This document shows positions 14,069-26,679 of a DNA stretch of 43,802 nt, one piece after another. The first letter of the stretch is position 1, and each line of letters begins with the position of its first letter. The notes under the pieces were generated by a model. It did no database searches. It was not told the origin of the DNA and saw only the letters and a list, made by a program, of their open reading frames with translations. Origin of the DNA: Lentisphaeria bacterium (lineage in GTDB: Bacteria; Verrucomicrobiota; Lentisphaeria; Victivallales; UBA1829); contig JAFTJI010000070.1 in the NCBI GenBank assembly GCA_017456495.1, positions 1 through 43,802 on the forward strand, read 5' to 3'. The position numbers and the translations under genes were made by a program.

Positions 14069-15124
14069 ATGAATATACTTAGTTTGTTTAGCGGATGTGG
14101 TGGATTGGATTTAGGCTTTGAACGCGCCGGATTTGATATCCCTGTCGCCAATGAATTTGATCCTGCCATATACGAGACATTTAAGGTAAACCATCCAAAA
14201 ACACATCTTCTGGAGGGGGATGTTCGCCAAATCACAAAAGAAAATATATTACCATTCGTAAATGGAGAAATAGATGGGATTATTGGCGGTCCACCTTGTC
14301 AATCCTGGTCAGAAGCGGGCTCCCTCAAAGGAATTGAGGATGCGAGAGGACAATTGTTTTTCGATTATATTAGACTTTTGCAAGAACTCCGTCCAAAATT
14401 TTTTCTGGCAGAAAATGTCAGTGGGATGTTGGCGGACCGTCATAGCGTTGCAGTACAAAATATCTTGGATTTGTTTAATCAGTCCGGTTATGATGTCTCT
14501 TTGACTCTAGTCAATGCCAAAGATTATGGTGTTGCAGAGGAAAGAAAAAGGGTGTTTTATATCGGCTTCAGGAAAGATTTGGGAATCCGCTTCCGTTTCC
14601 CGAAAGGTTCTACAGCAGAAGACGAAAAAAAAATAACTTTGCGTGATATTATTTGGGATCTGCAAAGCACGGCTGTTCCGGCCGGCCCTAAAAATCATCA
14701 CAATCCGGCAGCAATAAATAATAATGAATACTTTACCGGGGCATTCTCGCCAATATTCATGAGCCGGAATCGCGTGAAATCATGGGATGAACAGGCTTTT
14801 ACTGTACAAGCATCCGGACGTCAATGTCAGCTGCACCCAAAAGCTCCTAAAATGGTAAAGTTTGACAAGAATGATTGCCGTTTCGTTGAAGGTGCAGAAC
14901 ATTTATACCGCCGTATGACAATTCGCGAGGTGGCAAGAGTTCAAGGTTTCCCTGATGATTTCCAGTTTATTTATAAAGATACCAATAATGCCTATAAGAT
15001 GATTGGAAATGCTGTTCCTGTTAATTTGGCATACGAGGTAGCTATCGCTATAAAGTTGTTCTTGGAAGGCAGAGGAGAAGAAGTTATTGGTATTAATGAC
15101 GAAGAAGGGAGATTGTTTGCATGA
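14069..15124 (+). CDS. DNA (cytosine-5) methyltransferase, HaeIII-like (GGCC)
   Basis: A 351-aa C5-cytosine methyltransferase. Motif I is [13 protein letters not shown] (residues 6-18), motif [11 protein letters not shown] with catalytic Cys77, motif VI AENV (114-117), motif [20 protein letters not shown], motif [15 protein letters not shown] and motif [12 protein letters not shown]. The target-recognition part, including [15 protein letters not shown] and [18 protein letters not shown], closely resembles M.HaeIII as I remember it, so GGCC is the predicted target (inner C methylated). It overlaps the nuclease gene by four bases. The region is more AT-rich than its neighbours, a sign of transfer. 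The likely start is the ATG of MNILSLFSG; its SD (AGGGAT) is weak. Confidence 0.93.
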
Positions 15125-16074
15125 GTAACAGCAGTAATGACCAAGGTCGTGCCTATGAGTTTGCGTGGATAAATGCATTATGTAATGCGTTGAAACAATA
15201 TCGCACTGTCCGTATTGTTGAAAACTCAAGTTTAGAGGCGAATCAGCGTGCATGGAAATTGATTGACACTGAAAAGCAGGAACTGTTTGAGATTTCTGCA
15301 AAAGCTGCCTTGAAAACAGTTGTTGATTTGGAGCCTAATCTGATCGAAGAAACTTCTGATGAATTACTGCTTGAATTCCAGAGAGATCAAGCTGGCGTAA
15401 AAGGTGATGTCAGGGATATCGTTGTGAAATGCGATTCCGTAAACTGGGAAATAGGCTTTAGTATCAAACACAACCACGAAGCCGTGAAACATAGTCGTTT
15501 AAGTCATACATTGGATTTTGGGCAAGAATGGTTTGATGTTCCATGCGGAAAAAATTATTGGAAAAAAGTCAAACCGATTTTTGACAGACTGAAAGAGGAA
15601 AAAGATAAACAGACAAAATGGTCGGATATTGCACAAAAAGATGAAACCGTATATGTTCCTCTGCTTAAGGCTTTCATATCTGAAGTAAAAAGAGTTTATA
15701 AAATAGATAAAACTTTACCGCGGAAAATGGTGGAATATCTGGTCGGGACCAAGGACTATTATAAAGTTGTCAGCAAAGATAGTAAACGGTTGACCATAAT
15801 AGAAACATTTAATCTTCATGGAACGCTTAACAAACCTGGTAAACTAAAAGTTTCCGCTATTACAGTTCCTGTTATTGATTTGCCTACGGAACTGGTTGAA
15901 TTGAAATTCAAGACAGAAAGTAAAAATACTGTTGAGATGTATTTGAACAATGGCTGGCAGTTAAGTTTCCGAATCCATAGTGCCAGTACTAAAGTTGAAC
16001 CGAGTCTGAAATTTGACATTCAATTTATCGGAATGCCAGTATCCGTAATGAGTATAGAGTGTAAGTGGAAATAA
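15121..16074 (+). CDS. Type II restriction endonuclease, HaeIII family
   Basis: A 317-aa protein strongly resembling R.HaeIII in length and sequence blocks: GRAYEFAWI at the N-terminus, [39 protein letters not shown] and, near the C-terminus, [29 protein letters not shown]. It should cut unmethylated GGCC. Asp96 or Asp99 together with Glu110 and Lys116 could form the metal-binding core; that assignment is inference. ATGA overlap with the methyltransferase ensures the nuclease is made after or with its protector. It appears intact, so the system is probably active. Only 122 AT-rich bases separate it from the next gene. Confidence 0.92.
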
Positions 16075-16196: not shown

Positions 16197-18179
16197 ATGC
16201 TTGCTTTGAATCCTCTCTTTCAGGATCATGCTGTTTTTCAGCAGAAAATACCGGTTCCGGTCTGGGGAAAGGCTGAACCCGGACACCGTTTGAAAGCTGA
16301 GCTTTCCGGAACAACAGCTTTTACAAAAGTTTCCGCTTCAGGTTCCTTTAAACTCCGGCTGCCCCCAATGACGGCTGGCGGACCATTCATCTTTACTGTT
16401 ACAGATCTGGATTCCGGCGAACAAATCACTCTTCAGGATGTCCTTGTCGGGGAAGTCTGGCTCGCTTCGGGTCAGTCCAATATGGAATATCCCCTTTCCG
16501 GAAAAGGTTTTTCCCGTCCGTCTGCCGGGGATGAAACTCCCCTTTCCGAAATTCAGGTGCAGGAGTATATTTCCACGATCCCGGACGGCGAAAAATTCCG
16601 GTTCATTACTATTCCCCGCAATGCGTCCGGCTGTCCGGAAGAAACTTTCAACGGAAACTGGCGGGTCGTAACACCGGAATCTGCCGGAGAACTCTCTGCC
16701 GCAGCCGCATGGTTCGGAAAATATATTCAGGAAAAACTGGATGTCCCTGTGGGGGTGATCCATTGTTCCTGGGGCGGCAGCCGTGCTGTCGGCTGGATCG
16801 GCAGAGCCGGACTGTTCTCCGAACCGGAGACGGTTCATTTTATCAATCAAAGAGATGCAGAGCTTGTAAAAGCGGATCTCTGGGATGAACGGAAGGCTTC
16901 CCAGCAGCCGATCCCTGTTCCGCGGGAGTTTATCGACCCCGGCAACAAAGGTGTTGACTGGGGCTGGGCAAACTCTGACTTCAACGACTCCGGATGGGAG
17001 GATTTTACTGTTCCCGGAAGTTGGGTGCATCAGAAATATGCCGGTAACGGCGCAGTTTGGATCAGAAAAACAGTCGAGCTTCCTGCTCACTGGGCTGGAA
17101 AAAATCTCTCGCTGGAACTTGGACCTGTTGATAAAATGGATATCTCCTATTTCAACGGAACTGAAATCGGCAGATCCGGAAAAGAGCTTGACCCCTCTTT
17201 CTGGAACAAACGGAGAAGTTATCCCATCCCCGCCGATCTTGTGAAACCCGGAAAAAATACCGTTGCCGTCCGCGCTTATTCCTATATAGATGACGGTACA
17301 TTCAGCGGAACGGGCGAGCTTTATTATCTTCTGGAACCGGAATCCGGGGAACGCATTGAGCTTGGCGGTGCATGGAAGTTCCGGGCAGAATATGATATGG
17401 GGCTTACGAAACGCCCTGCGCAGCGGCTGGGTCCCTGCAATACTTGCACCCCATCCATTCTCTTTGAGGGAATGATCAATCCGATCAAAACATACGGGAT
17501 CCGGGGCGCGATCTGGTATCAGGGCGAAAGCGATACCGGAACTCTTGCTGAAGCGTTGGCTTACCGGAAGAAACTGGCTGAGATGATTCAGAATTGGCGT
17601 TATGTCTGGGAACAGGGCGATTTTCCCTTCATCCAGATGCAGCTTGCCGGTTATAATCTCGGAAGAGAGTCTCAATACGATCCGGAATCCTGGTGGTCGG
17701 TTTTGAGCGATAATCAGCGGCGGATCTGTGAAGATCTTCCGGGCGTTTATATGGCTTCTGCCGTTGATATCGGCGAAGCAAAAGACATTCACCCGCAGAA
17801 CAAGAAAACTGCCGGATACCGTCTGGCACTCTGCGCGCTGAACAATGTTTACCGGATCAGAGAAAAAGCTCCGGAAGGTCCCCGTTTTGCCGGATGCGTT
17901 CAGGAGGGACACTCCATCAGAGTCCGGTTCCGTCATGCTGAGGGCTTGACTCTGAAAGAAGATCTTCCCCGGAGTTTTTATATTGCCGGAGACGATCATC
18001 ATTTTTATCCGGCGGACAAGGTCGGGATCGAAGGCGATACTCTGCTCCTCTCCTCTGAAAAAGTGGAAATCCCCTGTGCCGTGCGCTATGCCTGGTCGGG
18101 CTTCCCTTCAAATACACTTTATAACGGTGACGGCTTGCCCGCTTCGCCGTTCCGTTCTGATGATTGGGAAATCAATTAA
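16197..18179 (+). CDS. Sialate O-acetylesterase family protein, copy 1
   Basis: A 660-aa SGNH-fold (SASA family) carbohydrate esterase. The nucleophile Ser94 is in ASGQSNMEY; IRGAIWYQGESD and DIGEAKDIHPQNK supply the remaining blocks with the catalytic His. A galactose-binding-like domain is inserted between blocks (about 245-400; DFNDSGWEDFTVPGSW...GNGAVWIRK), as in bacterial 9-O-acetylesterases. There is no signal peptide: the protein starts directly with MLALNPLFQDHAVFQQ, so it is probably cytoplasmic. AAGGA precedes the ATG. It is first of three tandem paralogs (15- and 11-base gaps). The true substrate may be sialic acid or another acetylated sugar. Confidence 0.9.
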   Translation: MLALNPLFQDHAVFQQKIPVPVWGKAEPGHRLKAELSGTTAFTKVSASGSFKLRLPPMTAGGPFIFTVTDLDSGEQITLQDVLVGEVWLASGQSNMEYPLSGKGFSRPSAGDETPLSEIQVQEYISTIPDGEKFRFITIPRNASGCPEETFNGNWRVVTPESAGELSAAAAWFGKYIQEKLDVPVGVIHCSWGGSRAVGWIGRAGLFSEPETVHFINQRDAELVKADLWDERKASQQPIPVPREFIDPGNKGVDWGWANSDFNDSGWEDFTVPGSWVHQKYAGNGAVWIRKTVELPAHWAGKNLSLELGPVDKMDISYFNGTEIGRSGKELDPSFWNKRRSYPIPADLVKPGKNTVAVRAYSYIDDGTFSGTGELYYLLEPESGERIELGGAWKFRAEYDMGLTKRPAQRLGPCNTCTPSILFEGMINPIKTYGIRGAIWYQGESDTGTLAEALAYRKKLAEMIQNWRYVWEQGDFPFIQMQLAGYNLGRESQYDPESWWSVLSDNQRRICEDLPGVYMASAVDIGEAKDIHPQNKKTAGYRLALCALNNVYRIREKAPEGPRFAGCVQEGHSIRVRFRHAEGLTLKEDLPRSFYIAGDDHHFYPADKVGIEGDTLLLSSEKVEIPCAVRYAWSGFPSNTLYNGDGLPASPFRSDDWEIN

Positions 18180-18194
18180 CATAAGGAAAAAACA

Positions 18195-20180
18195 ATGATC
18201 ACACTGAACAAAATGTTCCAGACGGGTGCTGTTTTTCAGCAGAAAATGCCGATCCCGGTCTGGGGAAATGCAACTCCGGGGAATCTCCTGAAAGCGGAAT
18301 TTGCCGGTATGGAGTCCTGGACAAGAGTTGCCGCAGCCGGAAACTTCATGTTGCGTCTGTCTCCCGTGGATGCCGGCGGACCTTACACGCTCAAGATCAC
18401 GGAAGTTGAGACCGGAGACACCGTTGTGCTGGAAGATATTCTTGTCGGGGAAGTCTGGCTCGCCTCCGGACAGTCCAACATGGAATATCAGCTCTCTTCC
18501 GACTGGACCGTGTTTCCCGGTGCAGCGAAAGAACCTTCCGGTGTAAACGCTGCACAGGCAGATGAATATTACAAGACCATCAAAGATCCTTCCCGTATGC
18601 GTTTTATTACTGTGAAAAAACTTGCCACCGGAATGGAAGAGGATACCTTTGAAGGCGAATGGAAATATATGAATGAAGATAACGCCTATATGGCATCTGC
18701 TGTTGCGGCATGGTTCGGGCGGTTCGTTCAGGAAAAACAGGATGTCCCGGTGGGGTTGATCATTTCAGCCTGGGGCGGAACCATTGCGGAAGCATGGACA
18801 AGCCGTGCCGGATTGCTCTCAAACCCTGATACTCTTCCTCTGGTTTATGAGACCGATCAGATTTTGCGGGAAGAGGAAAGCTGGACCCGGGATTCTGGCA
18901 ATGCCATGCCTGCTGAGGCGGTGAAAGATGCCGGAAACAAAGGTGTGGAATGGGGCTGGGCTGCTCCTGATTTCAACGATTCTGAATGGGTGGAAATGAA
19001 TATCCCCGGCAGCTGGATCAATCAGAAAGTCTCCGGAAACGGTGCGCTCTGGGTTCGTCAGGAAGTCACGATTCCCCCGCGTTGGAAAGGAAAAAATCTT
19101 GTTCTGCACATGGGCGGGATCGACAAACAGGATGTCACTTACTTCAACGGTGTGGAAATCGGCGGCATGGGAAAAGATCTTGATGCCAGTTTCTGGAACA
19201 TTCCCCGTATTTACAAGATCCCCGCAGAACTGGTGAAAGTCGGCAGGAATGTCATTGCTGTCAGAGGTTATTCTTTCCTGTTCGATGGTGCATTCCTCGG
19301 TCAGAAGAGAGACTATTATGTTCAGCCTGAAGGCGGAACCGAAGAGGACAGAATCCAGATCGGCGGTATGTGGAAAGCCGCTGCAGAACTTGACCTTGGT
19401 GTGATCTCTGCTTCTCTGGTCACTCCGGGACCCGGAATGGCCAATACTCCCGGGATTCTCTTCAACAGCATGATCCGTCCGCTGGTTCCTTACGGGATCC
19501 GGGGCGCAATCTGGTATCAGGGGGAAAGCAATGCAAATAGCGTGCCGGCTTCTCTTTCCTATGAACGGAAACTCAGCACCATGATCCGCGACTGGCGGTA
19601 CTGGTGGGGTCAGGGCAATTTCCCGTTCATTCAAGTGCAGCTTGCAAATTACTCTCCCAGCTTTGATCCGCCGTTTGTTCCCGCATCCAGATGGGCGATC
19701 CTCCGTGACACGCAGCGGCTCGTCTGCAATGCACTGCCCAATGTTTATATGGCATCTGCCATTGATATCGGTGATTTGATTGATATTCACCCGCAGGACA
19801 AAAAGTCTGTTGGTGCAAGACTTGCGGCAACTGCGTTCCGTTATGTCTATAAAGATCCGTCAGTTGTCCCCTGCGGTCCGCTTTATCAGGGATATTCTGT
19901 CGAGGACAATGCCATCCGGATCGACTTTGCCTATGCTGACGGCTTGACCGTTCTTGAAGATCGTCCCCAGAGCTTTTACATTGCCGGGAAAGACCGGGTT
20001 TTCCATCCCGCGACATCCGTTAAAGTCGAAGGCAGCTCTGTTCTCGTTTCCAACAAAAAAATCGCAAACCCCATGGCTGTCCGTTACGGCTGGTCCGATG
20101 CGGTCATCACTACAGTTTATAATGCAGCAGGACTTCCCGCTTCTTCCTTCCGGACGGATGACTGGGATTTCTATGAATAA
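18195..20180 (+). CDS. Sialate O-acetylesterase family protein, copy 2
   Basis: A 661-aa paralog of copy 1 with the same domain order: N-terminal beta domain (MITLNKMFQTGAVFQQKMPIPVWG), Ser94 in ASGQSNMEY, a galactose-binding-like insert (about 250-400), IRGAIWYQGESN and DIGDLIDIHPQDKK. It too lacks a signal peptide, so its substrate is probably an imported acetylated sugar. AAGGA lies ahead of the ATG. The conserved blocks are almost identical to copy 1, but the segments between them differ, which points to an old duplication with possible change in substrate. Confidence 0.9.
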   Translation: MITLNKMFQTGAVFQQKMPIPVWGNATPGNLLKAEFAGMESWTRVAAAGNFMLRLSPVDAGGPYTLKITEVETGDTVVLEDILVGEVWLASGQSNMEYQLSSDWTVFPGAAKEPSGVNAAQADEYYKTIKDPSRMRFITVKKLATGMEEDTFEGEWKYMNEDNAYMASAVAAWFGRFVQEKQDVPVGLIISAWGGTIAEAWTSRAGLLSNPDTLPLVYETDQILREEESWTRDSGNAMPAEAVKDAGNKGVEWGWAAPDFNDSEWVEMNIPGSWINQKVSGNGALWVRQEVTIPPRWKGKNLVLHMGGIDKQDVTYFNGVEIGGMGKDLDASFWNIPRIYKIPAELVKVGRNVIAVRGYSFLFDGAFLGQKRDYYVQPEGGTEEDRIQIGGMWKAAAELDLGVISASLVTPGPGMANTPGILFNSMIRPLVPYGIRGAIWYQGESNANSVPASLSYERKLSTMIRDWRYWWGQGNFPFIQVQLANYSPSFDPPFVPASRWAILRDTQRLVCNALPNVYMASAIDIGDLIDIHPQDKKSVGARLAATAFRYVYKDPSVVPCGPLYQGYSVEDNAIRIDFAYADGLTVLEDRPQSFYIAGKDRVFHPATSVKVEGSSVLVSNKKIANPMAVRYGWSDAVITTVYNAAGLPASSFRTDDWDFYE

Positions 20181-20191
20181 GGAATAAAACC

Positions 20192-22237
20192 ATGAAAAAA
20201 TTATTATGTCTCGTTCTTCTCTTCTGTGCGGCTTTTCTCTTTGCTGCACAGAAAATCACGCTTGGAAGTCTCTTCCAGGATGGAGCGGTGTTCCAGCGGA
20301 ATACAGATATTCCGGTCTGGGGAAAAACTCTGCCGGGCAGATCTTTGCTGGCTGAATTTGCCGGACAGAAGATCCGCACAAAATCCAACGCTGCCGGGGA
20401 GTTCATGTTCCGTTTTTCCCCTGTCAGAGCGGGCGGACCTTATGTTCTGACCATCACTGACAAAGACAGTAAGGCAGTCGTCACTGTCAAAGATATCCTT
20501 GTGGGCGAAGTCTGGGTCGCCTCCGGACAGTCCAACATGGAATATCAGATCGGTTCTGACTGGGCGTTTCCCGCCAAATTCAGAAACGACCCCAACAGTT
20601 TGGCGCGCCGTCAGCAGCGGGAATATATTGCAGGAATCAAAAATCCCGGAAAATTGCGCTATTTCTATGTTCCTCACAACTGCACCGGTGTCCGGGAAAG
20701 TACAGTCCCCGGAACCTGGAAGTATGTTGATGCAAAATCGGCTCCCGGATTTTCAGCTGCAGCCGCATGGTTTGCAAAGGCTGTTCAGGAAAACTTGAAT
20801 GTTCCTGTGGGCGTTATCGTAACAGCCTGGGGCGGGACCCGTGTGGAAGCATGGACAAGCCGGGAGGCTTTGCTCACCAATCCGGAAACGGCTGCAATGG
20901 CGAAAGAGGCTGACCGTGCTTTGCAGGATCCCGGGTTGTGGGATGCCGCCGCACGGAGAAAAAATGCTCAGAAAAACTTGAAGCGTGACCCCGGCAACAA
21001 AGGGTTCGGTATGGGATACGCGAAAGTCGATCTCAACGATTCCGGATGGAAAGATATGGTTGTCCCCGGCAGCTGGATCGTACAGAAAATTTCCGGGAAC
21101 GGTGCTGTCTGGGTCAGAAAAACTGTCATGATCCCAGCAAGCTGGGCTGGAAAAGATCTTATTCTCAGAACCGGCGGGATCGACAAGATGGATATTTCCT
21201 ATTTCAATGGTGTTGAGATCGGAAGAACCGGTAAAGGTTTGGATTTTAAGAGCTGGGACCAGAAGAGAACCTACACCATTCCCGGCAAACTGGTCAAAGC
21301 CGGAAAGAATGTGATCGCGATCCGTGCATACTCTTTCCTTCATGATGGTTCTCTCAACGGAAGAACGGAAGATTATTCTCTTTCTTTGAAGGGGTCAACC
21401 GTCGGTTCCATCAAACTTGCCGGAATGTGGAAAGCAAAGTCTGAAGTGGATTATGGTATTCTCAGTCCCCGTTCCGCAGGTTACAATCCGGAATACCCCA
21501 ATACACCGGGGATTCTGTTTGACGGCATGATCAATCCGCTTTTGCCCTATGCGATCCGCGGCGTGATCTGGTATCAGGGCTGCAGCAATGCCGGAAATGT
21601 TCACAATGCAAAAGCTTATCAGCAGCGTCTTGTGACAATGATCCGGGATTGGCGTTTCCGCTGGGGCGTGGGGGATTTCCCGTTCATTCAGGTTCAGCTG
21701 GCATACTTTGACCGTCTTCAGGAAGGGGTGTTCCTCAGAAATTCTCCGTGGGCATATCTCCGGGAATCCCAGCGGCTGGTCTGTGAAAGCCTCCCCAATG
21801 TCTTTATGGCATCAGTGATCGACAACGGCGATAAGCTGGATATTCACCCGCAGGACAAGAAAACAGTCGGTCTGCGGCTTGCTGCCAATGCGCTGCACAA
21901 TGTCTATCTCAAGCAGTCTGTCATTCCCTGCGGACCCCTTTATCAGAGTTACCGTGTGGAGGGAAACAGGATCCGGATCACATTCCGTCATGGTGACGGC
22001 TTGAAGGTCAAGGGCGACTTCAGGAAGAGTTTCTATATCGGAAATGATCTTGGAGCGTTCTTCCCGGCAGATACTCTGACGATCGAGGGCAACAGTCTTG
22101 TCTTGAGCAGCAAATCTGTTGCGGTTCCGGCAGCTGTCCGTTATGCCTGGTCACAGGCTCCGGAGTCTTGTCTTTACAACTCTGCCGACTTGCCGGCATC
22201 ATCATTCCGTACGGATAATTGGGATTCATCCCGTTGA
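20192..22237 (+). CDS. Sialate O-acetylesterase family protein, copy 3 (exported)
   Basis: A 681-aa paralog which, unlike copies 1 and 2, begins with a cleavable signal peptide (MKKLLCLVLLFCAAFLFAAQ), so it acts in the periplasm or outside. The nucleophile is Ser114 (ASGQSNMEY). The oxyanion block reads IRGVIWYQGCSN, with Cys where copies 1 and 2 have Glu (YQGES). That substitution in a normally conserved block may alter activity. The His block is IDNGDKLDIHPQDKK. The galactose-binding-like insert is present. The gene ends at a terminator it shares with the convergent araC-type gene. Confidence 0.9.
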   Translation: MKKLLCLVLLFCAAFLFAAQKITLGSLFQDGAVFQRNTDIPVWGKTLPGRSLLAEFAGQKIRTKSNAAGEFMFRFSPVRAGGPYVLTITDKDSKAVVTVKDILVGEVWVASGQSNMEYQIGSDWAFPAKFRNDPNSLARRQQREYIAGIKNPGKLRYFYVPHNCTGVRESTVPGTWKYVDAKSAPGFSAAAAWFAKAVQENLNVPVGVIVTAWGGTRVEAWTSREALLTNPETAAMAKEADRALQDPGLWDAAARRKNAQKNLKRDPGNKGFGMGYAKVDLNDSGWKDMVVPGSWIVQKISGNGAVWVRKTVMIPASWAGKDLILRTGGIDKMDISYFNGVEIGRTGKGLDFKSWDQKRTYTIPGKLVKAGKNVIAIRAYSFLHDGSLNGRTEDYSLSLKGSTVGSIKLAGMWKAKSEVDYGILSPRSAGYNPEYPNTPGILFDGMINPLLPYAIRGVIWYQGCSNAGNVHNAKAYQQRLVTMIRDWRFRWGVGDFPFIQVQLAYFDRLQEGVFLRNSPWAYLRESQRLVCESLPNVFMASVIDNGDKLDIHPQDKKTVGLRLAANALHNVYLKQSVIPCGPLYQSYRVEGNRIRITFRHGDGLKVKGDFRKSFYIGNDLGAFFPADTLTIEGNSLVLSSKSVAVPAAVRYAWSQAPESCLYNSADLPASSFRTDNWDSSR

Positions 22238-22250
22238 AAATAACGGTTCA

Positions 22251-22285
22251 GACCGCTCTCTTTTCTAATTTGAGAGGGAGCGGTC
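22251..22285. terminator. Bidirectional terminator between esterase 3 and the AraC gene
   Basis: GACCGCTC (22251-22258) pairs exactly with GAGCGGTC (22278-22285), with a few weaker pairs inside. T-rich bases lie within the loop, not after it, so the termination strength is uncertain. The hairpin overlaps the last codons and stop of the minus-strand AraC gene. Confidence 0.6.
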
Positions 22286-23107
22286 GATAATATCCCGGTG
22301 TTTTCTGAGCCAGATCCAGAAATTGGACGGTGTGGAAAAGCCGAGCTCAAAAGAGATTTCTTTCTGCCGCAATCCGCGTTTCATGGCTTCTACAGTGTAT
22401 TGGATCCGGATTTTGTCGATATATTCTCCGATGGTGCAGCCTTCGCATTCACGGAAACGATGGGAAAGATAAAATCTGCTGTATCCGGAAATTTTTTCCA
22501 GATGTTCCAGAGAACAACCTCTGGCATTGGACATGCGGATATACCGTTTCAGAGATTCGATAACGGTGTCAGAGTTTTCCTGTGCGACAGAATCCTGTCC
22601 TGTGCGTGACATAAAAAAACGGACTTCATCCAGCAGAGCTTCCAGCGGTGCTTTCAAATATTCGTCTATCATGTCCTGTGTGACGTTTTTTTCTTCGTTC
22701 AAGGCGTTCCAGCGGCGGGTCAGCATCATCTTGTATTCCAGAGAAAGTCGGACTCTATTCCACAATGCTTTGAACTCTCCGCCCATTCCCACTGTCAGAA
22801 AGTTTCCGGAAATCTGCTGATCCGGTTCGCTGACCTGCATCCAGAGATGGATCAGATCGTGATCTTGCGGCAGATAACCGAAAGCATGAGGATCCCAGTA
22901 ATCGATCAAAAAAAATGTTCCGGGTTCGGCATCATAGACTTTCCCATTAAACATATAACGGCTGCTGCCTTTCAGAACATAAAGGATCTCCCTCTGGGGA
23001 TGGGTACTGGAAAGAAATTCCCCGCACCCATCCGGAGTTCCCTCCGGAGAGTGACGGGTAATGATTTTTTTAACACCGTTTGACAGGTGCTGTCGGATTG
23101 ATTCCAT
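22265..23107 (-). CDS. AraC-family transcriptional regulator
   Basis: A 280-aa regulator. The N-terminal half is a cupin sensor domain (REILYVLKGSSRYMFNGKVYDAEPGTFFLIDYWDPHAFGY, about 39-78), which binds a small ligand. The C-terminal half (about 185-275) is a double helix-turn-helix of AraC/XylS type (GCSLEHLEKISGYSRFYLSHRFRECEGCTIGEYIDKIRIQ). It is the last gene of the amidohydrolase/isomerase/DegT operon, 13 bases after DegT, so it probably controls this operon and perhaps the neighbouring esterase genes in response to a sugar-like inducer. The sensed ligand is unknown. Confidence 0.9.
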   Translation of the reverse strand: MESIRQHLSNGVKKIITRHSPEGTPDGCGEFLSSTHPQREILYVLKGSSRYMFNGKVYDAEPGTFFLIDYWDPHAFGYLPQDHDLIHLWMQVSEPDQQISGNFLTVGMGGEFKALWNRVRLSLEYKMMLTRRWNALNEEKNVTQDMIDEYLKAPLEALLDEVRFFMSRTGQDSVAQENSDTVIESLKRYIRMSNARGCSLEHLEKISGYSRFYLSHRFRECEGCTIGEYIDKIRIQYTVEAMKRGLRQKEISFELGFSTPSNFWIWLRKHRDIIDRSLSN

Positions 23108-23120
23108 TCAGGAATGCTCC

Positions 23121-24365
23121 TCAGGCTTTGCTTGCGGCGTACTGCTTCAGTTCATCAATGTTATCATAGATCTTGTGCAGAACGGCACTCAGTTTTTCAA
23201 CTGTTGCTCTGTGTGTGAGAACATAATGAGCGCTGCCGAGGGTTCTGTCAAAGAGGTCTTCGCAAACGGCACATCTTCCATCGGGGATCCGGTATTCTCC
23301 CTTGCTCAGATCCAGGTTGAAGAGACTTGCCTTGTAGACAGGTCCGTGCGTTCCGTTTCCGATGCCGAAACCTTCAGCATCGCATGCTGCATTGATGATG
23401 GATTTCGGAATATCCTTGAACGGTTCGCCGTCAAAGATCAGGTGGAAACTGTAGTAGCCCTGAGGTTCGGAAAGTCTTCCGGGAGCCTGCATACGGACTC
23501 CGGGGATATCCTTGATGGATTCTCTTAAAAATGCTGCATTCTTTGAGTAGGTGTCGATCAGCTTGTTCAAGCCTTTGAGCTGCTGGCTGAGGATGACAGC
23601 CTGGAATGCTGTTGCGCGGTAGTTGTGGCAGAGCAAGCCTTCCGGTGCTCTGATCGCCTGTCCCTGCTTGATCCCGCGGGAGTAACCGATATGTTTCAGC
23701 AGATAGATTTTTTCTGCCAGTTCCGGATCGTTGGTAATACAGATCCCGCCTTCACCGGAGGACATTGTTTTGCTCTGCTGGAAGCTGAAAGAACCGACTT
23801 TTCCCCAGCTGCCGACGCCGCGTCCGTTCCAGAATCCGCCGTGCATGTGGGCGCAGTCTTCGATCACCGGAATGCCGTGAGCATCAGCGATTTCAAGGAT
23901 CTTTTCCATGTCTGCGGTGGAACCGTAAACGTGAACCGGGATGATCGCCTTGGTTTTCGGTGTGATCGCTGCACGCATCTTTTCCGGATCCATACAGAGG
24001 GTCGTCGGTTCGATATCCACGATCACGGGAGTTGCACCGACATAGGAAGCTGCCAGAGCGGTTGCCATCCATGTCAGGGCGGGAACGATGACTTCATCGC
24101 CCTTTGTAACACCCAGTGCGGTAAGCGCGCATTCCAGCGTAGTGGTTCCGTTTGCCATGAAGATCCCGTATTTTGCCCCGTGATATTCTGCAAAAGCCTT
24201 TTCAAATTCCTGTTCAGCCGGACTGTTGAAGGACCAGTTGCCTTCCATATAAGTCTTTTTCAGGACTTCCGCAGTTTCTTCATCTCTCGGAGGCCATGCC
24301 GGAAACAGAGTTAAATACTCTTCCTTGATCAGTTTGTCTCCGCCCAAAATTGCGAGGTTTGCCAT
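23121..24365 (-). CDS. DegT/DnrJ/EryC1/StrS-family PLP aminotransferase
   Basis: A 414-aa PLP enzyme. The Schiff-base lysine is Lys199 in SFSFQQSKTMSSGEGG; Asp170 (VIEDCAHMHG) should contact the pyridine nitrogen. EVIVPALTWMATALAASYVGATPV and the N-terminal LAILGGDKLIKE resemble the sub-branch holding scyllo-inosose aminotransferases and AHBA synthase rather than nucleotide-sugar aminotransferases. A cyclitol or keto-sugar as amino acceptor is therefore plausible, though that rests on remembered motifs. It lies 27 bases after the isomerase gene and 13 before the AraC gene. Confidence 0.9.
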   Translation of the reverse strand: MANLAILGGDKLIKEEYLTLFPAWPPRDEETAEVLKKTYMEGNWSFNSPAEQEFEKAFAEYHGAKYGIFMANGTTTLECALTALGVTKGDEVIVPALTWMATALAASYVGATPVIVDIEPTTLCMDPEKMRAAITPKTKAIIPVHVYGSTADMEKILEIADAHGIPVIEDCAHMHGGFWNGRGVGSWGKVGSFSFQQSKTMSSGEGGICITNDPELAEKIYLLKHIGYSRGIKQGQAIRAPEGLLCHNYRATAFQAVILSQQLKGLNKLIDTYSKNAAFLRESIKDIPGVRMQAPGRLSEPQGYYSFHLIFDGEPFKDIPKSIINAACDAEGFGIGNGTHGPVYKASLFNLDLSKGEYRIPDGRCAVCEDLFDRTLGSAHYVLTHRATVEKLSAVLHKIYDNIDELKQYAASKA

Positions 24366-24392: not shown

Positions 24393-25124
24393 TCAAAGTG
24401 ATTTCATGTATGCGAGACTGTCTGCTGCACTCTGGAAGGGATCTGCGGAGTTATCCTGTTCAAAGATCAGCCATTCTGCGTTGATCTCTTTTGCTGCTGC
24501 GAATGCACTCTTCAGGTCAACAATACCGGTTCCGAGGGTTGCGGTCGTTCCGGGATCGGTGGGAACAACGATATCTTTGAAGTGAACCTGCTTGATTCTG
24601 TCTGCATACTTGCGGATGTAAGAAGCGGGATCCATTCCTGCACGGGTCAGCCAGCAGACATCGGGTTCCACGAAGATTTTTTCTGCGCCGGGAGCATCCA
24701 GAATGCGGTACATTGCGGGAATCCCGTCAGCCAGATCATATTCTGCCCAGTGGTTGTGGTAAGAGAAGATCACATTCTTAGCTTCGGCGTTTTTCTGGAT
24801 CGCCAGACACATATCGAGGATCTCCTGCCATTTATTGGCGAAGTCGACCATTGCGCTGATGCTGATAGCCGGGGGAGCCAGTTTCTTTGTGTATTCCCAT
24901 GCGATATCATCGGCATTTGTCAGAGCTGCACCCTGGAACATTGCGCCGCAGCTTTCCAGTTTGATCTCTTTCATGAATTCTGCGATTTCATCGGGGGTCA
25001 TTCCGCCGAAATTGAATGCGAATTCCACACCGTCGAACCCGATTTTTGCAATCTCTTTCATGGTTCCTTTGAAATCTTCTGAGAGAGCTGTGCGGAAGTT
25101 GTAAAGCTGTACACCGTACTTCAT
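24393..25124 (-). CDS. Sugar phosphate isomerase/epimerase-like TIM barrel
   Basis: A 243-aa AP endonuclease-2/xylose isomerase-like barrel (IolE/IolI/IolH relatives). Strand-end residues fit a divalent-metal site: FSYHNHWAEYD (about 127-137), VEPDVCWLTRAG, KQVHFKDI and WLIFEQDN near the C-terminus. The N-terminal MKYGVQLYNFRTAL...GFDGVEFAF is typical. Likely reactions are isomerisation, epimerisation or dehydration of a sugar or inosose. It follows the amidohydrolase gene by 2 bases and precedes DegT by 27, so it is firmly part of this operon. Confidence 0.85.
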   Translation of the reverse strand: MKYGVQLYNFRTALSEDFKGTMKEIAKIGFDGVEFAFNFGGMTPDEIAEFMKEIKLESCGAMFQGAALTNADDIAWEYTKKLAPPAISISAMVDFANKWQEILDMCLAIQKNAEAKNVIFSYHNHWAEYDLADGIPAMYRILDAPGAEKIFVEPDVCWLTRAGMDPASYIRKYADRIKQVHFKDIVVPTDPGTTATLGTGIVDLKSAFAAAKEINAEWLIFEQDNSADPFQSAADSLAYMKSL

Positions 25125-25126
25125 GA

Positions 25127-25930
25127 TTAAAAGTCCTTTCCGAGAATCCGTTCGGGATTCCTGCTTAAAATATTGAGTTTATCTTCATCTGTGATCTTGG
25201 CAGAGAGAACCCCGCCGACCCCCTGATATTCATCAAACCAGGGCATGTCTGTTCCGTAAAGGATCCGTTCGCTGCCGACTCCTTCCACGAGCTTTTCGAT
25301 GATTCCCCTGTCCCCCGGGATCGCTGTCAATTCCAGCCAGACATTGTTGTTGGATTCTTTCACGCACTGGATCGCATAGTCCCATGCACCGTAGCAGCAG
25401 TGGGCAATAAAGAATTTGGCATTCGGATATTTCTGAATTGCTTTCAGCACTGCCGGGTCATTCCCCCAGGTATGCACCAGAACAGGAAGCCCCCGTTCAT
25501 TGGCGAAGGAGAGCGCATAGTCATACCGGGGATCCATCATATCGCAGTTATGATATCCGGGCAGTAATTTCAGCCCGACGGCATAGGGAGCCCACTTGTC
25601 GAACTGTGCAATATCTTCTCTGATATGATCTTCCCGCTGGGGAACGATCGAGAGATACATTCTGAGAGTATCGGGGAACTGTTTGCAGATTTCATAAACC
25701 CGAGCATTGCGAAATGTTCCCCACAGTGCTTCGTGGTGGGAGAAGACAAGACGTTTCACGCCGATCCTTTTGACATGTGCCACCATTTCCGGAGCTTCGC
25801 AGATCTTGAAGTAGATCGCATAATGGGCGCCCATGTGGCCGTGCATATCATAAATCGGAAAATCTGCTTTTCCGTCTTTCCAGAACTTTTCGGCAAGAGA
25901 CCCCGGCTGATTCCAAATACATTCGCTCAT
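25127..25930 (-). CDS. Amidohydrolase 2 (metal-dependent TIM-barrel hydrolase)
   Basis: A 267-aa amidohydrolase_2 member. All expected metal motifs are visible: HxH at 30-32 (YDMHGHMG), His in VLVHTWG (about 156), His in FFIAHCCYG (about 178) and the terminal Asp in LYGTDMPWFDE. The family includes lactonases (SMP-30-independent), decarboxylases and dehydratases, so the exact reaction is open. It overlaps a related but degenerate paralog upstream by four bases and is 2 bases from the isomerase gene. Probably cytoplasmic, since no signal peptide is present. Confidence 0.87.
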   Translation of the reverse strand: MSECIWNQPGSLAEKFWKDGKADFPIYDMHGHMGAHYAIYFKICEAPEMVAHVKRIGVKRLVFSHHEALWGTFRNARVYEICKQFPDTLRMYLSIVPQREDHIREDIAQFDKWAPYAVGLKLLPGYHNCDMMDPRYDYALSFANERGLPVLVHTWGNDPAVLKAIQKYPNAKFFIAHCCYGAWDYAIQCVKESNNNVWLELTAIPGDRGIIEKLVEGVGSERILYGTDMPWFDEYQGVGGVLSAKITDEDKLNILSRNPERILGKDF

Positions 25931-26679
25931 AATTCTGCTCCTTTCAGGATCCGTTCCAGATTTTTTCCGGCGATTTTGGCAATAGATTCATCATCCAGAC
26001 CGGAGTGTTTCAGCTGAAGCATGCCGTTCCCCTGATTACCGGCAGGGAAATTTGTACCGTAAAGGATCCGTTCAGCTCCATACTTTTCTGCCAGTCCGCG
26101 GACTCCTTCCGGAACCCAGTAGCGGGCAATTTCAAAATAGAAGTTTTCGTATGTTTCGAGCAGAGGACGGATATTTCTGTCGCTGCCCCATTTTCCCCAG
26201 TTCTCTGCATAAATAAATGTATTCTTCGGGAAAATTTCCAGAAAATCATAGAGTTTATCCCACTGTCCGGCAAAGGCATCCAGCAGCACGGGAACTTTCC
26301 GTTCAGCGGCGGCATCCATGATCTTTCCGATCACGATCCGGCGTGGTTGATAGCGGTGTTCAAAGGGGGAAAGAGTGATTGCCCCGATCCGGTTTTCTTT
26401 CATTTGACGGAAAAATTCATCCGGTTCCGGGATCTCGTCACAGGAATTCGGCAGAATACACCAGACACCGGTCAATCTCTGATCCGGATCTTCCTCTCTC
26501 AGCATTCTGGCAATTTCCTGGTTAGTGGAAAGGGGTGCCTTGGGAATACCGTTGTGACGGACAAGAGCCTTATCGACACCGTAGTAGTCCATGTCCGACA
26601 GCAATTCTTTCACACCGGGGTTTGCGTTCCCGAAGTCGCCGACCCGGCAGTTTGCATCGAAAAACATCAAGTCTTTCAT
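25927..26679 (-). CDS. Amidohydrolase-2-like protein lacking the metal ligands
   Basis: A 250-aa homolog of the next gene, first in the operon. At each usual metal-ligand site the residue differs: the N-terminal HxH site reads FDANCRVGD, the VLVHTWG site VLLDAFAG, the IAHCC site IYAENWG, and the GTDxP site YGTNFPAGN. The fold and the C-terminal SIAKIAGKNLERIL signature are kept. It may be a pseudoenzyme partner of the active copy, a binding protein, or a metal-independent enzyme. The ATG at 26679 follows AGGAG by about 7 bases; the longer frame to 26775 would run through the promoter. Its stop overlaps the next start by four bases. Confidence 0.8.
   Translation of the reverse strand: MKDLMFFDANCRVGDFGNANPGVKELLSDMDYYGVDKALVRHNGIPKAPLSTNQEIARMLREEDPDQRLTGVWCILPNSCDEIPEPDEFFRQMKENRIGAITLSPFEHRYQPRRIVIGKIMDAAAERKVPVLLDAFAGQWDKLYDFLEIFPKNTFIYAENWGKWGSDRNIRPLLETYENFYFEIARYWVPEGVRGLAEKYGAERILYGTNFPAGNQGNGMLQLKHSGLDDESIAKIAGKNLERILKGAEL

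Follow-up and report, generated by a model that had tools for sequence, protein, structure and literature searches.

A metal-ligand-free Amidohydro_2 protein inherited with an intact homologous partner, probably as the non-catalytic half of a two-subunit amidohydrolase

Enzyme/pseudoenzyme pairs are known mostly in eukaryotes. The dead paralogue of trypanosomatid DHS activates its partner about 3000-fold (PMC3663545), and in both the AdoMetDC prozyme and DHS a dead paralogue joins an impaired active paralogue, forming the active enzyme (PMC5201418, PMC3663545). In the amidohydrolase superfamily, the pDHO of the Pseudomonas ATCase dodecamer is an inactive member that is needed by its partner enzyme (PMC7053772). 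ACMSD, a relative by fold of the proteins described here, is inactive as a monomer, since an arginine that binds the substrate comes from the neighbouring subunit (PMC9021598, PMC11650718). In human ACMSD this trans-arginine is Arg235, 11 residues past the ligand His224 (PMC9021598). Dead subunits of this superfamily and dead/live paralogue pairs are known already, but dead/live pairs of Amidohydro_2 proteins were not found described: the open-licence literature gave no description of paired or fused active and inactive Amidohydro_2 proteins.

The window analysed here is the whole 43,802-nucleotide stretch of contig JAFTJI010000070.1 of a Lentisphaeria bacterium, and the close named relatives of the source genome are gut Lentisphaeria MAGs. 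Two Amidohydro_2 genes open an operon with the order PS, EN, IolE-like barrel, DegT aminotransferase, AraC regulator. The features of the first two genes are as follows.

25927-26679, minus strand: PS, Amidohydro_2 protein without metal ligands, 250 aa, gene 1 of the operon (Pfam PF04909, E = 4.9e-13)
25127-25930, minus strand: EN, ligand-complete Amidohydro_2 partner, 267 aa (Pfam PF04909, E = 2e-21)
25927-25930, minus strand: ATGA stop/start overlap of PS and EN, 4 bp, read from the sequence
26644-26658, minus strand: DANCR, PS residues 8-12, at the HxH site following strand 1 (joint alignment)
26278-26280, minus strand: Asp134 of PS, replacing the strand-5 His (joint alignment)
26203-26205, minus strand: Glu159 of PS, replacing the strand-6 His (joint alignment)
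26050-26052, minus strand: Asn210 of PS, replacing the strand-8 Asp (joint alignment)

The PF04909 scores of PS (49.9 bits) and EN (77.4 bits) were both above the curated cut-off of 26.4, which places both proteins in Amidohydro_2. The PS reading frame is intact; it starts with the ATG at 26679, and AGGAG lies 6 bases upstream. The sequence-only reading had described an intact frame with a good ribosome-binding site, and its coordinates and strand were correct. Translational coupling of PS and EN would be expected from the ATGA overlap, and the same 4-bp overlap recurred in 40 of the 69 adjacent PS->EN pairs of the joint domain survey described below.

The joint alignment matched D28, H30, H32, K121, H153, H177, and D228 of EN with D8, N10, R12, T102, D134, E159, and N210 of PS. 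EN has the complete HxH, His, His, and Asp set, and these seven residues were invariant in EN and 19 relatives. At the five metal-ligand columns, where a catalytic amidohydrolase has H, H, H, H, and D, PS has N10, R12, D134, E159, and N210, the sole survivor being the Asp of the first motif, which is not a ligand. The motifs DANCR (8-12), LDAFA (133-137), AENWG (158-162), and GTNFP (208-212) were all present in PS, so the earlier observation that every metal-ligand motif is absent from this protein and intact in the next gene was confirmed. PS contains just three histidines (42, 108, and 225), which cannot stand in for the ligand set. Its AlphaFold (AF2) model (pLDDT 94.4, pTM 0.92) showed a regular barrel with normal strand order and an intact barrel mouth. 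Compared with solved Amidohydro_2 structures the model gave TMq of about 0.6-0.7 and E down to 4e-10, which is the TIM-barrel fold of the family. From the joint alignment, the histidine count, and the predicted model, the ligands of PS are gone and not shifted, and shifted ligands were ruled out as an explanation.

Sequence searches of the PDB with single proteins gave no match, and a profile search found only distant Amidohydro_2 members. The fold and PF04909 are common to the pair and to ACMSD, gamma-resorcylate/2,6-dihydroxybenzoate decarboxylase, and 2-pyrone-4,6-dicarboxylate hydrolase; in the PDB, both models matched folds of this family best. Sequence identity to solved Amidohydro_2 members is about 11-17%. 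EN keeps the metal ligands like these enzymes. The known PF04909 enzymes are homo-oligomers with a full metal site in each subunit, whereas here one of the two proteins has none. NCBIfam holds no model for PS.

PS homologues were present in the genus, the family, and the order, and in at least 94 of 388 genomes drawn from the phylum Verrucomicrobiota at E<=1e-15; this count is a lower bound because scoring was limited to six candidates in each genome. We aligned 291 Amidohydro_2 domains from Verrucomicrobiota loci jointly, and their ligand content was bimodal. All five ligands were present in 154 domains and four in 1, while 129 domains had none or one, and 7, mostly fragments, were partial. 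Almost all ligand-less domains (124/129) adjoined or were fused to an intact partner: 69 were directly upstream of it, 21 directly downstream, and 34 fused to it, two of these fusions (L112, L113) being doubtful. Homologous dead and live copies co-occur in these loci, as in an enzyme/pseudoenzyme paralogue pair. The linkage count is not circular, because loci were picked by similarity to PS and not by the presence of EN. Five ligand-less domains were unpartnered; three of them lie at contig ends (L006, L118, L163), one has a partner minus two ligands (L172), and one is truly solo (L090). The presumed active partner in L172 (L172:2338-3779) reads H, Y, H, H, S, and this pair is possibly doubly degraded.

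The converse search, with an EN profile over the order, gave 53 matches above 160 bits, and the next match followed after a gap at 131 bits. PS was found at most 300 bases away on the same strand for 52 of these 53. The remaining match (G063:C1) starts 151 bases from its contig end. No ligand-keeping homologue was found in the position of PS, and no alignment showed a ligand shift. The sequence-only reading had also raised the recurrence of the same substitutions; the ligand loss is seen in 129 domains, and the replacing residues vary between PS subfamilies.

A second ligand-less group (FDVNTAIGHWPFR...) was seen in L088, L092, L102, L104, L105, L108, L164, and L171. Its intact partner (DAHNHxW...) lies upstream, giving the order EN->PS, and the group is probably a sister branch of the PS/EN system. 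The solo protein of L090 (L090:3056-3841) is the only ligand-less protein of this group that has no adjoining intact partner.

The source genome itself carries three PS/EN systems, namely the window pair, a second split pair on C43, and a fused protein on C94. The latter (L030:1501-3084, G000:C94) is a natural PS-EN protein of 527 aa. Its structure was modelled from an alignment of 13 natural fusions only and showed pLDDT 82.5 and pTM 0.85 over 527 residues. Because unrelated orientations would give a much lower pTM, the two predicted barrels are likely packed against each other in a defined manner.

The tree was built from 113 representatives after the ligand columns were removed. All 57 ligand-less proteins fell on one side of one branch, against about 38 changes with shuffled labels. 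This result is consistent with a single origin of the ligand loss but does not prove it, because the SH-aLRT value is weak (62) and several tips are long. On the ligand-less side, a PS->EN/fused group of 40 rows (support 96) separates from a group of 15 rows (support 93) in which EN->PS order prevails. Across 124 pairs, PS identity and EN identity were correlated with r=0.926 (pairs below 60% PS identity). When partners were shuffled within genomes (300 shuffles), mean r was 0.61 and the maximum 0.74. Because within-genome shuffling controls for species history, the co-divergence of PS and EN exceeds what species history gives.

Between close orthologues, dN/dS was 0.06-0.13 for PS and 0.05-0.12 for EN (one saturated EN comparison was left out). 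PS is under purifying selection, in agreement with the earlier proposal that it is kept by selection, and the ligand loss is not local decay.

Related arrangements were also detected outside Verrucomicrobiota by tblastn against plasmids; these matches were judged by eye and by profile and left out of the tree. Subdoligranulum variabile (Bacillota) showed PS-EN pairs, and Nonomuraea (Actinomycetota) showed two pairs. Two PS-EN fusions occurred in the haloarchaeon Halomontanus rarus, together with one whose intact half comes first. Examples of the motifs in these plasmid matches are FADCN and LFDCN for the first halves or genes and VVDCHMH and IIDLHGH for their partners. One H. rarus plasmid locus (L188:3917-7304) holds a PS-EN and then an EN-PS fusion, consecutive and in opposite order. 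A sugar phosphate isomerase/epimerase gene, similar to the neighbour of the window pair, adjoins one of the Halomontanus fusions.

The residues of PS that are conserved family-wide (G14, N53, P77, P105, P151, G201, R204, G208, P212, and N240) are mostly structural, and its conservation as a whole falls mainly on glycine, proline, asparagine, and hydrophobic residues. The former ligand positions are occupied by varied residues across the PS subfamilies. An alternative polar set at the strand ends was looked for in 74 effective PS sequences, and none was conserved. The window clade showed one further motif.

26167-26178, minus strand: Arg168-x-x-Arg171 of PS, after strand 6, kept 100% and 98% in 41 window-clade PS, absent from EN

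R168 and R171 lie 9 and 12 residues past the strand-6 position E159, which resembles the placement of the ACMSD trans-arginine, 11 residues past the strand-6 His (PMC9021598). Their conservation is limited to the window clade and does not extend to the main fusion clade. From this position, both arginines are candidates for trans residues that might reach the active site of EN.

As PS and EN are almost always adjacent or fused, they are most likely one two-part enzyme, half dead and half live. We consider that PS is probably the non-catalytic subunit of a two-subunit amidohydrolase, an old and obligate enzyme/pseudoenzyme heteromer, in which it would complete or activate the EN site. The pair probably descends from a homo-oligomeric Amidohydro_2 enzyme, whose gene would have been duplicated, one copy then losing all its metal ligands. 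PS and EN would since have been inherited as a unit, either co-translated with the 4-bp overlap or as a PS-EN fusion. Metal binding and catalysis would be performed by EN alone. PS most likely packs on EN as in the homodimer of the family, and in this putative complex it may lend residues to EN or hold its loops, so that a composite site would be formed, with one functional active site per PS-EN heterodimer. The earlier suggestion of an enzyme with a pseudoenzyme partner gained support from four independent lines: the linkage in both directions, the fusions, the co-divergence, and the selection on PS. Points against a physical heteromer are the solo PS of L090, the restriction of R168 and R171 to the window clade, and the fact that adjacency and fusion would also suit pathway partners that do not bind each other. 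The regulatory role that it named may be one among several mechanisms, beside completing or stabilising EN.

Like PS, the pDHO of Pseudomonas is a dead subunit, but its partner is a non-homologous transcarbamoylase, whereas the partner of PS is a homologous amidohydrolase and often fused to it. No transcarbamoylase was present among the neighbour genes examined, so PS does not qualify as the pDHO of a class A2 ATCase. The AdoMetDC prozyme and DHS have unrelated folds and are eukaryotic, while PS/EN is prokaryotic, operon-coupled or fused, and present in several phyla and one archaeon.

The retained pocket might have another use. As a ligand-sensing regulatory subunit, PS would bind an effector or product in the emptied pocket and switch EN on or off; we regard this as rather unlikely in its own right. 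The pocket is retained as a fold, and partner-activating pseudoenzyme paralogues are known in trypanosomatid DHS (PMC3663545) and the AdoMetDC prozyme (PMC5201418). The pocket residues are poorly conserved family-wide, though pathway-specific sensors could account for that. This reading is a sub-case of a non-catalytic subunit and is inseparable from it here. The mostly structural conservation of PS also suits a subunit that acts as a stabiliser or folding partner only and leaves the chemistry unaffected, as does the inactive pDHO chain that is required for assembly of active ATCase in Pseudomonas (PMC7053772); we judge such a limited role to be clearly unlikely.

A metal-independent enzyme of different chemistry, placed beside EN through a common pathway, is improbable. 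The fold and the barrel mouth of PS are intact in its model, and D8, H108, R168, and R171, which are polar, and W188 are conserved in the window clade. Genes of one pathway frequently adjoin. However, the mostly structural conservation and the variable ligand positions disfavour a second chemistry, no polar set being conserved, and the exclusive homologous pairing, the fusions, and the co-divergence exceed the needs of pathway membership. The different chemistry offered as an alternative by the sequence-only reading is for this reason not favoured. The chance that PS is a pseudogene in decay, or an artefact of assembly or annotation, is negligible: the 129 homologous domains are intact and come from independent assemblies and genomes, and decay was excluded by the low dN/dS and the breadth of homologues.

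The other genes of the operon may hint at the pathway of the putative two-part enzyme.

24393-25124, minus strand: gene 3, xylose-isomerase-like TIM barrel protein, IolE-like (PF01261, E = 8.5e-19)
23121-24365, minus strand: gene 4, DegT/DnrJ/EryC1/StrS aminotransferase (PF01041, E = 6e-90)
22265-23107, minus strand: downstream AraC-family regulator (PF12833, E = 9e-11)

Gene 3 scored 48.6 bits against TIGR04379, far under the NCBIfam cut-off of 290. In the four closest loci (L031-L034), PS-EN is likewise followed by the barrel, DegT, and AraC genes. A DegT gene was near 36 of 98 PS->EN or fused pairs, whereas for solo amidohydrolases the count was 1 of 21 (Fisher p=0.003); this p-value is rough because the flanks differed in length and were short, and because related loci are non-independent. 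The recurrence of DegT next to PS-EN pairs of distant genomes hints at a common pathway module. From the DegT, sugar-isomerase-like barrel, and AraC neighbours, our guess is that PS/EN takes part in breaking down a sugar or cyclitol derivative. Elsewhere in the window lies a restriction-modification pair with a 4-base overlap (14069-16074), made up of a C-5 cytosine methylase and a restriction endonuclease of the HaeIII type (PF09556, E = 3.6e-136), and three tandem genes (16197-22237) encode SASA-type carbohydrate esterases of 660-681 aa each.

For annotation, the result means that hundreds of 'amidohydrolase family protein' entries probably have no metal site. Expressed alone, EN-type partners may appear inactive, and functional screens of the superfamily would then be misled. 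Because this prokaryotic family is large, with natural fusions and dozens of pairs that diverged independently, the effect of the dead subunit on the live one is testable by comparison. It is possible, though somewhat doubtful, that PS/EN forms an ancient and wide prokaryotic class of obligate heteromeric amidohydrolases, with one ancestral loss of the metal site, diversification as pairs, and PS supplying part of its partner's site. If this is true, the class would cover many specificities, each complex combining a live site with a permanently dead one.
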